Assembly: GCA_900317375.1 (NCBI GenBank)
Contig: ONGJ01000024.1
Span: 1 to 36,354 of the forward strand
Length of the DNA: 36,354 nucleotides
DNA from: an uncultured Eubacteriales bacterium
GTDB taxonomy: Bacteria > Bacillota > Clostridia > Oscillospirales > Oscillospiraceae
Direction of reading: 5' to 3'
Both the position numbers and the translations under genes were made by a program. Below the pieces are notes generated by a model. That model saw nothing but the letters and a program-made list of their open reading frames with translations, was not told where the DNA came from and made no database searches. Position 1 is the first letter of the stretch. The number at the start of each line of letters is the position of its first letter. Below are positions 13,602 through 27,455 of the stretch, piece after piece.

Positions 13602-15781
13602 TTGTCCAGGCGCTGGCGCTCGACCAGCTCGGCGAAGAAGCCGTTCTTGGCGATCAGCTCGTCATAGGTGCCGTCCTCCAGGATCCTGCCCTGGTCCAGC
13701 ACGAGGATGCGGTCGCAGTTGCGGATGGTGCTCAGGCGGTGGGCGATGACGATGCGGGTGCATTTCATTCTGTCCAGCGCGTCCGAGACCTGCTTCTGCG
13801 TCCTGTTGTCCAGGGCGCTGGTCGCCTCGTCGAACATCAGGATCTTCGGCTTCGGCGCCACCGCGCGGGCGATCATCAGGCGCTGCTTCTGCCCGCCCGA
13901 GATACCGCCATGGCCTTCGGCCAGGATGGTGTTCATCCCCATGGGCATGGCGCGGATGTCGTCGGCGATGCCGGCGATCTCGGCGGCCTCCCAGGCGTCC
14001 TGCAGCGACAGCTGCGGCGCCGAGATCACGATATTGCTGTAGATGTCCCCCTGGAAGAGGCTGCCGTCCTGCGTGACCACGCCCATGCGCCGCCGCAGCG
14101 AGCGCAGATCCAGCTTGCTCATGTCCTTGCCGTCGTAATAGATGGCGCCGCGCTCGGGCACCTCAAAGCCCAGCAGCAGGCGCAGCAGCGTCGATTTGCC
14201 GCAGCCGGTCCGGCCCACCAGGGCGATATACTCCCCTGCGCGGATTTTCAGGCTCATGCCGTCCACCACATAGGGCATGTTCTCGTTGTAGCGGAAGTAC
14301 ACGTTCGAAAGCTCGATGTTGCCCTTGAGCGACGAGACCATGGTCTTGTTCTCCGAGGACTCGGGCTCGGTCTTCAAAATGGGCTCCGCCATCTCGAGGA
14401 TGGGCTTGATCTGGGCAATCGACAGCGCCACCCCCGACAGGGCCGTGAAGGCCCCCATCACCGAACCGTAAGCCACGTTGAAGGCGATGTATTCCGAGGG
14501 CGAGACATTGGTCTTCACCGCGAGGTAATAGATGACGATGGTCCCGATCAGCGATACCGCGACGCTGATCGCGCTGTTGGCCTTGATCAGCATCGGCGGG
14601 TTATAGCTGTACTCGGCAGCCTCGGCATAGGTCTTCGCCCAGCGGGCGAAGGCGCGCTTCTCGGCGCCGGCCAGCTTGATCTTCTGCACGCCGGTGATCA
14701 TGGCATAGCTGAGGCCGTTTTCCTTGGCCCCCTTCTGCATGACCTGGCGCGAGATGTTCATCTGCATGAAGGTCGATGCGACGCTGATGAGCACCGTGAC
14801 CAGGATGATGATCAGCGCGGGCACCACCAGTGCGGGCGCATAGTGGAAGATCTGCGTGATGTACATCAGGGACATCAGGCTCGTCAGGCCCATGGAAAAG
14901 ACATTCCCCAGCAGCAGCGAGCACAGCTGATTCACCGCGCTGTAGCGGCTGGACAGTTCACCGGAGGAATACTGCCGGAAGAAGTTGGCCGGCAGGTTCA
15001 TCACCCGCATCATCATGGCCGCCTCCACCGACAGCGAGGTCTTGATCTCGATGCGGTTCATCATCAGCTCCCGCACGGTCGAGATGATCTGTGTCGAGAG
15101 GATCACGCACAGCATGAACACCGCCGTCCCGTACAGCAGCGTGTAGTTTCCGCTGTTCAGGACGAAGCCCGTCAGCGCCCTCGTCAGGTTCGTCATCAGC
15201 AGGCCGAAGAGCGTGGCCGCAAAGGTCAGCGCGACGATCATGACGATGTCCCCGGTGTTCAGGCAGTTCCACATATAGGTGATCAGGTCGGGGATGCCCA
15301 GCTTCTTGAGCGGCAGCGGCTTGTAGAAGCAGATGGCCTCTTCATCCAGCAGCTCCGCCGTCTTCGCCGTGAGGTTTACGCGTTTTCCCGTTGCGGGGTC
15401 CAGGAAGGTGTAGCCGATAAAGGGCTTCGGCAGCAGCGCCACCGGCGTGCCGTCCTCCTTGCGGAAGGCCAGCATGGGGCCGAAGGCGTCATTGTACCAG
15501 CCCTTTTCCAGCTTGACCGTGCGCCGCATGATGCCGTGCGGGCGCAGGCAGAACTCCAGCTGTTCATCCGGGTCCTTGATGGTGTCGGGAATCTCAGCCG
15601 GTTTGTAATGATAATACTTTAAGATCTCATCGATCGCCGCTTTGGTGATGATGCGTTCCGAATCCGCGATGCCGGCCTTCTGCCGTCCGAGGACAACGGA
15701 AGCCATGCGGAAGATGGAATCCTCAAAGACCTCCTGGTCCCGTTCCTTCCGCTCGCGGATCTGTTCGTCAAACCAACCCAT
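13598..15781 (-). CDS. NHLM/NHLP-type ABC exporter, permease-ATPase without peptidase (727 aa)
   Basis: The first 155 or so residues form a soluble N-terminal domain that replaces the C39 peptidase. A six-helix ABC transmembrane domain follows (about 175-460), then an ATPase with Walker A GRTGCGKST, signature ISGGQKQR, Walker B ILMFDEATSALD and the H-loop IVIAHRLST. This layout, next to a C39-peptidase ABC protein and a small HlyD-like protein, matches the permease/ATPase partner of the NHLM bacteriocin export systems (TIGR03797-like, from family knowledge). The two ABC proteins probably form a heterodimeric exporter. The gene starts 12 bases after the upstream exporter and is preceded by a GGGGGCGCGGAG site very close to the ATG. 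Confidence 0.85.
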   Translation of the reverse strand: MGWFDEQIRERKERDQEVFEDSIFRMASVVLGRQKAGIADSERIITKAAIDEILKYYHYKPAEIPDTIKDPDEQLEFCLRPHGIMRRTVKLEKGWYNDAFGPMLAFRKEDGTPVALLPKPFIGYTFLDPATGKRVNLTAKTAELLDEEAICFYKPLPLKKLGIPDLITYMWNCLNTGDIVMIVALTFAATLFGLLMTNLTRALTGFVLNSGNYTLLYGTAVFMLCVILSTQIISTVRELMMNRIEIKTSLSVEAAMMMRVMNLPANFFRQYSSGELSSRYSAVNQLCSLLLGNVFSMGLTSLMSLMYITQIFHYAPALVVPALIIILVTVLISVASTFMQMNISRQVMQKGAKENGLSYAMITGVQKIKLAGAEKRAFARWAKTYAEAAEYSYNPPMLIKANSAISVAVSLIGTIVIYYLAVKTNVSPSEYIAFNVAYGSVMGAFTALSGVALSIAQIKPILEMAEPILKTEPESSENKTMVSSLKGNIELSNVYFRYNENMPYVVDGMSLKIRAGEYIALVGRTGCGKSTLLRLLLGFEVPERGAIYYDGKDMSKLDLRSLRRRMGVVTQDGSLFQGDIYSNIVISAPQLSLQDAWEAAEIAGIADDIRAMPMGMNTILAEGHGGISGGQKQRLMIARAVAPKPKILMFDEATSALDNRTQKQVSDALDRMKCTRIVIAHRLSTIRNCDRILVLDQGRILEDGTYDELIAKNGFFAELVERQRLDK

Positions 15782-24391: not shown

Positions 24392-24886
24392 ATGGCTAAC
24401 ACATTGATAGACCGCAGATTCTATGACGCCATTGTAAATTTTGAAGGCTCTGAGGCTGCGCAGGATTATTACTATTCGGTCATGAATGCCGAGATGGACC
24501 GCGACGGGAAAAAGGACACCGTCAGGAACATGATCCTGCGTGTCTACTCGATGCTGTTCTGTGACGATCTCGGGGCTCTCCCCGGTCAGATCGCCGGTCC
24601 GGACGACGTGGTGGCGACCGCGGACCGCCTCCACACCGGCACAATGGGCTTTGACCGGCAGCACTGGTACCGCATGCAGCATCATTTCCCGGTCATCGAC
24701 GATGACAATTATGACCGTTTTGCTGCCCTGGTCATCTCGGACCTGAACGCCGGGCCCCTTCACGAGGCCGCGCTGAACGACGGCGATATGCTGCTGGTCG
24801 GCGCGCCGGATCCGCTTCACATGACGCAGGAGCAGCTTGAAAAGCAGGAGGTCCGTGTCGTACGCATGAAAGGAGACGTGCAATGA
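24392..24886 (+). CDS. Unrecognised cytoplasmic protein (164 aa), first gene of the fusion operon
   Basis: I do not recognise this protein. It has no signal peptide or membrane helix, is acidic overall, and contains several Asp/Asn clusters (MDRDGKKDT, VIDDDNYDRF) and a Met/His-containing stretch (HWYRMQHHF). The ATG is preceded by GGGGAG. It overlaps the REC-SARP fusion gene by 4 bases (ATGA), so the two are made together and may interact. It shows no similarity that I can see to barnase or another RNase, which would have been expected if the barstar domain of the next protein had its target here. Confidence 0.8.
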   Translation: MANTLIDRRFYDAIVNFEGSEAAQDYYYSVMNAEMDRDGKKDTVRNMILRVYSMLFCDDLGALPGQIAGPDDVVATADRLHTGTMGFDRQHWYRMQHHFPVIDDDNYDRFAALVISDLNAGPLHEAALNDGDMLLVGAPDPLHMTQEQLEKQEVRVVRMKGDVQ

Positions 24887-26421
24887 CGATCTTTACGGTA
24901 AACAGCAATTCCGAAACCCTCCGTCAGATCTCCGACATGCTTCTGGACCTCTATCCCGACGCCAGGCAGAAGAGCTTTCAGAGCAGTCTGCAGGCGCTGG
25001 CCGCCGCCCGTGAGGAGGAGGTCGACGTGGCCGTCCTGGATGTCATGCTTCCCGAGATGAGCGGTCTGGATCTCGGCCAGTACCTGAAGGATCTCAATCC
25101 CTTCGTCAACCTCATCTATCTGACGCATGCACGGGATTACGGCTACGACGCCATGTGCCTCCATGCCAGCGGCTGCCTTCTGAAGCCGGTCACGCGGGAA
25201 CAGCTTCAGACCGAGTTTTCGGATCTCCGCCACCCGGCCATCATGAAAAAGCAGAAGCGCCTGTTTGCCCAGACCTTCGGGAACTTTGAGCTTTTCTGTG
25301 ACGGCAAGCCTGTCGTCTTCAAATACTCCAAGACGAAAGAGATCGTCGCCCTGCTCATCAACAACCGCGGCGCCCAGACCAGCAACGGCGAGATCATCGC
25401 CTCGCTCTGGGAGGATGACGGCGATCCGGATAAAAAGGGTTCCTATCTTTCGAATCTCCGGCAGGACCTGCAGAACACCTTTGACCGCCTGAAGCTGCAC
25501 GGGATCCTCCTCAAGCAGCGCGGCAGTCTTGCCATCGCCGTCGACCGCATCGAGTGCGACCTCTATGACTGGCTCGACAAGAAGAAGGAATCGCGCTATC
25601 AGTATCTCGGCGACTATATGAACCAGTACAGCTGGGCGGAATATATCCACGCCGAGCTGGATGAGATCAGCTATGCCATGGAGGATCAAACTGTTCGGGA
25701 TGTGAAGGTACCTGCTATGACCAGAATTCTCTTTGTATGTCACGGCAATATCTGCCGAAGTCCGGCTGCCGAAATCCTGCTTCGTGATATGATCGCGCGC
25801 AGCGGCCTTTCGGAAGATTACACGGTCTCTTCCGCCGCTACGACGACGGAGGAAATCGGAAATCCTGTCTACCCGCCGATGCGGCGCCTTCTGGAAGCGC
25901 GCGGTCTGGACTGTTCCGGCAAAACCGCCAGAAAGGTAAGACGCTCGGATTACGACAGCTATGATCTGATCATCGGGATGGACGAGGAAAACCGCTGGGA
26001 TCTTCGGCGTATCTTTCACGGCGACCCCGACGGCCGGATTCATAACCTGCTGGAATATCTCGGCCGCGGAGACGAATCGATCCCCGACCCCTGGTACACG
26101 CGCGATTTTTCCGGCTGTCTGGATGTCATCGAGCAGGCCTGTTATGCCCTTCTCGAGACGCTGAGCGGCGTGGTCTTCCTGGATTTCTCTGCCTGCGCCG
26201 ATATCCCGTCTCTCTATTCCGAAATGCGCCAGAAGATGGCATGGAAAGCCTGGTACGGTGAAAACCTGGATGCACTTCACGATATCCTGACCGGGCTCCC
26301 TCATCGCGGCACCCGTTTTGTTCTCACTCTTCCCTCCGTGGACGCGCCGCCCGAAGTCCGTCTCTACGCCGACCGCATCGCATCCGTTTTTCAAGATTAT
26401 GAAAAGGACAATCCATCATGA
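24883..26421 (+). CDS. Fusion protein: REC-SARP regulator + LMW protein tyrosine phosphatase + barstar-like domain (512 aa)
   Basis: One uninterrupted frame carries three modules. Residues 1 to about 265: a receiver with Asp53 (VLDVMLPEMSG), Thr81 and Lys101, but Asn7-Ser8 instead of the acidic pair, then a SARP-type winged helix (QTFGNFELFCDGKPVVFKYS) and the family motif DYMNQYSWAE. Residues about 279-425: a low-molecular-weight phosphatase with CHGNICRS (Cys286, Arg292) and the acid loop DPWYT (Asp402). Residues about 429-512: a barstar-like domain with WYGENLDALHDILTG, closely matching the core of barstar. The start has AAAGGAGACG upstream. An internal ATG at 25717 with GAAGG nearby could also give the phosphatase-barstar part alone. 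The phosphatase may act on protein phosphotyrosine or phosphoarginine; the target of the barstar part is unknown. Confidence 0.88.
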   Translation: MTIFTVNSNSETLRQISDMLLDLYPDARQKSFQSSLQALAAAREEEVDVAVLDVMLPEMSGLDLGQYLKDLNPFVNLIYLTHARDYGYDAMCLHASGCLLKPVTREQLQTEFSDLRHPAIMKKQKRLFAQTFGNFELFCDGKPVVFKYSKTKEIVALLINNRGAQTSNGEIIASLWEDDGDPDKKGSYLSNLRQDLQNTFDRLKLHGILLKQRGSLAIAVDRIECDLYDWLDKKKESRYQYLGDYMNQYSWAEYIHAELDEISYAMEDQTVRDVKVPAMTRILFVCHGNICRSPAAEILLRDMIARSGLSEDYTVSSAATTTEEIGNPVYPPMRRLLEARGLDCSGKTARKVRRSDYDSYDLIIGMDEENRWDLRRIFHGDPDGRIHNLLEYLGRGDESIPDPWYTRDFSGCLDVIEQACYALLETLSGVVFLDFSACADIPSLYSEMRQKMAWKAWYGENLDALHDILTGLPHRGTRFVLTLPSVDAPPEVRLYADRIASVFQDYEKDNPS

Positions 26422-27455
26422 GTTCTTCTGCTTCCACTTCAAAAAAGCGTCACCCCATCGGGCGTTTTTTTGCTTTTCTCGGTGTCACGCTGCTTTGCCT
26501 GGTCCTGACGCTGTTGGGCTTGATCTGGGTCCTTGAGCGGGGCCCCTCCCCGACTGTCACCGGCATGTTCACCCGTTCGGTGCGTGAGACCAGCGCCATT
26601 CGCTGGATCAGCAACATTTTCCTCAGCGATGAGGAGCTGGAAAACTATAAAAGCGTCAGCACCGAGAACACGGTTACCGAGGCCGTCAACACCTCTCTGA
26701 TCCATATCGCCGAGGGCACGGCATCCCTCCCGCCCTCCGAATCGGTTCAGCTTATCGATATCGCCGAGGGCACCTGCAAGGGGAAGCTTCTGATCGTGTC
26801 CGATCCGAAGCAGGTGATCCTCGGGACCTCGGATGAGTTTGTGAGACAGCCGGGGCTGCTGCTTACGGATATGGTCGCCAAATATGACGGCATCGCCGGA
26901 ATCAACGCCGGCGGCTTCAACGATGAAAACGGCAGCGGCAACGGCGGCATCCCGCAGGGCCTCGTGATTACGAACGGCGAAATCATCTGGGGCGACGCCA
27001 CGACGCCCTACCACATGGTCGGTCTGGATTCTGACGGGATTCTTCATGTCGGCGCTATGAGCGGCAATACTGCTGTCGAACAGGGTGTCCAGTGGGCAGT
27101 CAGCTTTATTACCCACGACGGGCTTGCATCCTCCCTGATCATCAACGGCGAGGTTCAGCAGCAGAATCTCGGCGGCGGCGTCAATCCGCGCACAGCGCTC
27201 GGCCAGCGTGCTGACGGTGCCCTGCTGCTGCTTGTTCTGGACGGTCGCAGCATCAACACCCTCGGTGCGACCATGGAGGATGTCGTCAATATCATGCTGG
27301 AATACGGTGCGGTCAATGCCGGCAATCTGGACGGCGGCTCGTCGTCCGTCATGGTTTATGACGGTGAAATCATCAACCACTGCGCCTCCGTTACGGGCCC
27401 GCGCAGGATCCCGACAGGCTTTATTGTGCTGAAAGAAGGTGCTGCTCATGGCTGA
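26418..27455 (+). CDS. Phosphodiester glycosidase family (NAGPA-like) membrane-anchored protein (345 aa)
   Basis: One N-terminal membrane helix (about residues 12-34) is followed by an extracytoplasmic domain of the NAGPA/DUF2233 family. Diagnostic segments are GIAGINAGGFNDENG, PQGLVITNGEIIWG, NPRTALGQRADG and NAGNLDGGSSSVM near the end. In the family this fold cleaves GlcNAc-1-phosphodiester or acts in exopolysaccharide and cell-wall glycan processing; the bacterial substrates are largely undefined. The ATG overlaps the fusion gene stop by 4 bases (ATGA), with AAGGA ten bases upstream. It shares an operon with signalling genes, so expression may follow the signal system, but a shared pathway is inference only. 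Confidence 0.88.
   Translation: MSSSASTSKKRHPIGRFFAFLGVTLLCLVLTLLGLIWVLERGPSPTVTGMFTRSVRETSAIRWISNIFLSDEELENYKSVSTENTVTEAVNTSLIHIAEGTASLPPSESVQLIDIAEGTCKGKLLIVSDPKQVILGTSDEFVRQPGLLLTDMVAKYDGIAGINAGGFNDENGSGNGGIPQGLVITNGEIIWGDATTPYHMVGLDSDGILHVGAMSGNTAVEQGVQWAVSFITHDGLASSLIINGEVQQQNLGGGVNPRTALGQRADGALLLLVLDGRSINTLGATMEDVVNIMLEYGAVNAGNLDGGSSSVMVYDGEIINHCASVTGPRRIPTGFIVLKEGAAHG

Follow-up and report, generated by a model that had tools for sequence, protein, structure and literature searches.

The 512-codon frame and its surroundings

The window, i.e. the whole stretch of 36,354 nucleotides analysed here, is an entire contig (C69), one of the 161 contigs of the draft genome G000. On its forward strand a single frame of 512 codons starts with ATG and stays open throughout positions 24883-26421; an earlier sequence-only reading had described it as a REC-SARP regulator, a low-molecular-weight (LMW) tyrosine phosphatase and a barstar-like domain joined in one chain. 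Most of these components were recovered in Pfam. The receiver domain (Response_reg, REC; 24916..25212, residues 12-110) passed its cut-off of 30.2 with 51.7 bits. The phosphatase domain (LMWPc, PF01451; 25726..26154, residues 282-424) scored 110.4 bits, above the curated cut-off, and contains both motifs that had been claimed for it, the CX5R P-loop CHGNICR at 25738-25758 and the DP (Asp-Pro) loop at 26086-26091. The barstar domain (PF01337; 26170..26406, residues 430-508) passed with 45.8 bits against 23.4, and scored 49.2 bits in a profile search of the G000 genome. The SARP part of the description did not hold up to the same extent: the winged helix (Trans_reg_C) reached 15.3 bits, below the cut-off of 26.2, and no Pfam match to BTAD at E≤1 was found in the frame. 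A BTAD domain after the winged helix is the hallmark of SARP proteins; with the former unmatched and the latter sub-threshold, the regulator is ‘SARP-like’ at best.

The regulator, with its REC and winged-helix regions, occupies 24883..25682 (+), up to which point the DNA is collinear with contig C34 of the nearest relative, G015; only about its final two to three codons and the stop are missing. Several similar proteins are encoded in G000, and the relatives of the regulator come mostly from uncultured gut and rumen Clostridia. Overlapping the regulator start by ATGA is a gene (24392..24886, +) whose 164-aa product belongs to no known family, Pfam (at E≤1) and NCBIfam both giving no match. 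This gene was situated directly upstream of the regulator in all 38 scanned loci holding the regulator (L060-L096 and L098, with L099-L139 outside the scan), and the two make up a tight, uncharacterised gene pair.

A junction of 34 bases (25683..25716, +) separates the regulator from the internal ATG at 25717, which had been pointed out as a possible separate start; the GAAGG at 25704-25708 in this linker provides a plausible ribosome site. From this ATG to the end of the frame (25717..26421, +) runs a conserved unit of 234 aa, the LMWPc-Barstar gene. Its stop shares an ATGA overlap with a phosphodiester glycosidase gene (NAGPA, PF09992, 119.4 bits; 26418..27455, +). The NAGPA gene also directly follows LMWPc-Barstar in G015, G041, G053, G108 and G131; it was not seen in this place in, e.g. 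G046 and G013.

The regulator/phosphatase join

The combination of domains had been noted as an unfamiliar one that would bring DNA binding, protein dephosphorylation and an inhibitor-type interaction together in one chain. A query across the junction found matches in 89 of the 102 genomes of the genus, none of which spans the junction besides G000 itself. Given that the regulator-phosphatase join is spanned in none of the 101 other genomes, a conserved REC-SARP-LMWPc-Barstar architecture was rejected, and the evidence for one chain with DNA-binding, phosphatase and inhibitor functions is limited to one contig, which may be misassembled. Regulator-side matches in G017, G020, G025 and G056 reach query residues 50-57, past the junction, but contain stop codons.

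Both halves were seen in 27 other genomes (counted by eye in the matches of the junction query). In 24 of them the best LMWPc match was on a different contig from the regulator; in the other three (G131, G105 and G132) the regulator and an LMWPc gene share a contig at a distance of 24-76 kb, the LMWPc gene of G105 and G132 being a different, tail-less copy. G053 has, in addition, a partial second LMWPc copy 18 kb from the regulator on the same contig. A stop codon occurs within a few codons of the tail end in all 20 regulator genes read (≥60% identity), and an ATG, TTG or GTG stands at the aligned start in all 16 LMWPc-Barstar genes with the start covered, one further gene in this comparison being truncated by a contig end. 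Contig L117 opens in the regulator tail, matched at 92% over 25 residues. A stop comes next, and after it an unrelated gene, for an insulinase-like peptidase (named by eye); here, too, the regulator ends by itself. When relatives were checked for separate genes with a stop between them, such a stop was found at the regulator/phosphatase join and not at the phosphatase/barstar join, which is a true fusion.

In comparison with G015, collinearity is with C34 to the left of 25682 and with C22 to the right of 25718, so that it switches contigs within 25683-25717. The 34-base linker has no significant similarity to either G015 flank (shuffle p 0.08 and 0.85), and an 81-base junction query has one match in G000, while in G015 it matches on the regulator side only. 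The regulator-phosphatase frame is probably a one-genome event, a rearrangement or a misassembly; in either case the second gene, judging from the ATG at 25717 preceded by GAAGG, could still be made alone.

Which of the two events produced the join is a nearly balanced matter. An error of the draft assembly at 25683-25717, to which we give a chance close to even, is in line with the 161-contig state of the genome, with collinearity passing between two G015 contigs exactly at the join and with a linker whose origin is not explained. It also agrees with the breaks that are common in the genus just upstream of LMWPc-Barstar: a contig end lies within 1.5 kb upstream in 20 of the 55 measurable genes, hinting at a repeat or a hypervariable stretch there. 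This same proneness to breaks speaks against the other reading, somewhat short of an even chance in our estimate, that a recent local deletion or rearrangement created a genuine expressed protein, with the regulator tethered to the phosphatase and barstar. Such a protein would be known from one contig of one strain, and the internal ATG with its GAAGG could yield a separate product; on the other hand, the frame is open and in phase across the 34-base linker. As well, within G000 the junction sequence has no match other than itself, so no repeat accounts for a false join.

The genome G131 bears on both readings. In the window, a gene for a solute-binding protein and LMWPc-Barstar flank the regulator pair; in G131 these two neighbouring blocks share one contig, keep the relative orientation that they have in the window and are separated by ∼12 kb with accessory genes. 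This physical closeness favours a genuine local rearrangement over an assembly error and weakens the possibility of a random chimera of two distant loci, but the regulator pair of G131 is located on the far side of the block, not between its two parts. A further argument against a false join is that the genes expected from G015 beside each half were not found elsewhere in G000 or have weak matches only. For the operon downstream of the regulator in G015, a search of G000 with the 7.9-kb region returned only short dispersed repeats and a single 278-base stretch at 66%, with 40 of 105 candidates scored. The gene right after the regulator had no match in G000, an empty result that alone shows nothing, and the GNAT gene that precedes LMWPc-Barstar in G015 had two weak matches. 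Weighing these points together, we lean slightly towards an artefact.

Of the matches of the 7.9-kb query, 26 in G000 and 58 in G015, almost all fall on two short sites within it; dispersed repeats of ∼75 bases were seen at C85:2042-2115 and C55:33547-33619 of G000 and at G015:C22:4444-4517.

The phosphatase-barstar protein and the barnase of the genus

The LMWPc-Barstar fusion is present in 65 of the 81 genus genomes with an extracted LMWPc gene, G000 included. Among 66 fused rows, the P-loop Cys is kept in 63/63 and the Arg in 64/64 of the rows that cover the column, and the DP loop in all 66. Alignment to a solved barstar places a DxxxD motif at 26269..26283 (+); we take its two acids to be the Asp35 and Asp39 of the barnase-binding helix in barstar numbering. 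Each of these equivalents is kept in 66/66 fused rows, and an acid is found at position 76 in 63/66. When compared with PDB, the barstar part gave 15 matches at E≤1, 14 of them to barstar (best E 0.0012), and the closest solved relative of the phosphatase domain was YfkJ (PDB 4etm, E 1.8e-26). An AlphaFold model of the LMWPc-Barstar half (4 rows) supports the phosphatase half, with predicted blocks at pLDDT 77-94; the barstar blocks have pLDDT 40-66, and the order beta-alpha-alpha-beta-alpha is seen there at low confidence. On this sequence evidence, the phosphatase-barstar fusion is a true one, conserved across the genus.

No fusion outside the genus was found among the matches listed for an order sample of 394 genomes, of which a few reach residue 160-195 into the barstar part, through stop codons; nor was one found, by match range, in a phylum sample of 398 genomes. 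In the latter, 11 other genomes gave weak matches, which their range assigns to long frames, to LMWPc tails or to free frames of barstar size; the one long frame that was read, in G675, resembles a DinG-type helicase (by eye).

In the LMWPc tree, genes without the barstar tail fall into two sets. Those of G001, G056, G059, G105, G115 and G132, along with extra copies in G011, G012 and G120, group with the order outgroups at moderate support. Eight others (G003, G008, G018, G029, G048, G135, G138 and G139) are located inside the part of the tree occupied by the fusion, and beside seven of these eight lies the convergent DivIVA-like gene (a Pfam match below cut-off) that also neighbours the fused relatives; it was not seen beside the G029 gene within the stretch covered. 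The eight unfused genes do not form one clade (rejected, AU p 0.0099), and a single clade of all fused genes is disfavoured (AU p 0.036), both p-values being optimistic because the eight rows were chosen after the first tree; the fused state requires a minimum of three changes on the LMWPc tree. None of the eight genomes has a barnase match; in these barnase-less genomes the same gene lacks barstar. The persistence of the phosphatase without the tail in these genomes suggests that it has a job of its own, and the failure to keep the tail there suggests that the job of the tail concerns barnase.

A barnase-like partner had been reported as absent from the surroundings of the frame. This is correct for the window and not for the genome, a search of which, as had been proposed, detected a barnase-type RNase (PF00545) at G000:C81:15124-15417 with 67.7 bits. 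The frame of this gene, when read from an inner Met, has a hydrophobic segment at its N-terminus, and its product aligns to solved RNases of the barnase family, binase and barnase among them, with E from 2.4e-29 to 4e-28; the catalytic E, R, R and H are among the aligned residues. G000 has one barnase match and one barstar match, the latter being that of the window; with the barstar on C69 and the barnase on C81, the two genes are not adjacent. The barnase gene adjoins an enolase gene (C81:13396-14682 and 14908-15429), an adjacency that is also found in near relatives, e.g. G015, G041, G053 and G131. Tandem double-barnase frames occur in G046:C32, G013:C109, G103:C69 and G020:C121 (that of G046 was read).

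We observed barnase in 85 of the 102 genus genomes and in 1 of 14 control genomes, and barstar in 73 of 102 (72 over cut-off) and 2 of 14, respectively. Over the 102 genomes, the drafts of which are incomplete, 70 have both, 15 barnase only, 2 barstar only and 15 neither, with a sub-cut-off barstar match in G001 scored as absent (Fisher p 4e-8, relatedness ignored). In the 37 genomes that are ≥90% complete, the corresponding numbers are 28, 2, 0 and 7 (p 3.5e-6). Tests that take relatedness into account are too small for significance: pairs in the enolase tree of 70 genomes change the same way in 4.0 cases and the opposite way in 0.8 (sign test p 0.375), and those in the LMWPc tree in 2 and 0 (p 0.5).

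The association follows the state of the phosphatase gene. Barnase is present in 63 of the 65 fusion genomes (no match in G119 and G126) and in 5 of the 16 genomes with unfused LMWPc only. Among these five exceptions, the barnase of G105 and G132 has a separate barstar next to it, as has that of G103, where a contig end truncates the LMWPc row and a tail may have been missed; the gene of G123 is partial and shares its contig with a barstar match, and G115 is unexplained. In 58 barnase genomes every barstar match is on the contig of the phosphatase gene. A barstar match is missing in 15 barnase genomes, two of them ≥90% complete (G027 and G110); the LMWPc gene was not recovered in 14 of the 15, which suggests assembly gaps.

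Taken as a whole, the explanation that we consider likely is that of two run-together genes, the second of which encodes a phosphatase whose barstar would block the genome's own barnase. The 512-codon frame would consist of a REC-winged-helix regulator, with its upstream partner, and an LMW phosphatase-barstar protein; the genes would have been merged in this genome only, either by a rearrangement that deleted the last codons and stop of the regulator or by a join introduced in assembly. LMWPc-Barstar would then be the functional unit, a predicted tyrosine phosphatase with an intact active site, the C-terminal barstar of which would bind and block, in the cytoplasm, the barnase-family RNase encoded on another contig. 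As far as can be judged from sequence, the barstar tail is most likely a cytoplasmic antidote, carried by an otherwise working LMW phosphatase, to the genus's own, presumably exported, barnase.

Two other roles of the tail deserve mention. The barstar could be an interaction module unrelated to the C81 barnase, regulating the phosphatase itself or meeting another RNase. Barstar matches in the controls E. coli and B. subtilis, where the barnase model is unmatched, agree with this, and a table in a polymorphic-toxin comparison (PMC3482391) lists Imm-Barstar also with the RNase toxin family Ntox21, so that barnase may not be the sole possible target. Still, barnase and the fused barstar co-occur across the genus, the barstar domain is absent from the gene in all eight barnase-less genomes of the fusion's part of the tree, and Asp35 and Asp39 are invariant in the fused rows; we regard this role as improbable. 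It is also unlikely, in our view, that LMWPc-Barstar would combine sensor and antidote, the barstar capturing unexported barnase and the bound state switching the tyrosine phosphatase; if true, a secretion fault or RNase load would be tied to the dephosphorylation of envelope or exopolysaccharide regulators.

With regard to the antidote role, in a large part of this genus of gut and rumen Clostridia the inhibitor seems to be attached to the end of a signalling phosphatase, with RNase-less relatives lacking the tail. If this is confirmed, nature would here have placed an immunity domain inside a signalling enzyme, and the idea of toxin capture feeding into signalling would become testable. The locus also illustrates that a conspicuous frame of four domains, seen in a single draft genome, is not evidence for a four-domain family.

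Comparison with known systems

The window regulator shares the REC and winged-helix region with the REC-SARP-like regulators of Clostridia and differs from them in that BTAD is undetected and that it continues into another gene. With the LMW protein-tyrosine phosphatases (YfkJ, 4etm) the second gene has in common a complete PF01451 domain, the CX5R motif and the DP loop, to which the window protein adds a C-terminal barstar domain. Among the papers listed in searches of a limited literature collection, none describes a phosphatase-barstar fusion.

Barnase and barstar are a model of tight protein recognition, with barstar generally known as a free-standing inhibitor. In the polymorphic-toxin comparison (PMC3482391), Imm-barstar is reported to be specifically tied to barnase-like toxins and to carry DxxxD, and simple barnase-barstar gene pairs are described.

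A second carrier of barstar was observed in the same genus: in G105:C15 (L241) and G132:C1 (L242) a barstar and a GtrA-type membrane domain are found in one frame directly beside the barnase gene (Pfam was run on L241 only). This frame and LMWPc-Barstar are alike in that barstar is fused to an unrelated carrier; in the former, GtrA is C-terminal to barstar and the gene is adjacent to barnase. With the classical barnase-barstar system, LMWPc-Barstar shares the barstar domain with its DxxxD, and the barnase of the genome aligns to the solved RNases of the barnase family. It departs from that system in that the usual, though not obligatory, adjacency of the inhibitor and RNase genes is missing in G000, the inhibitor here being the C-terminal domain of a phosphatase encoded on a contig other than that of the RNase.
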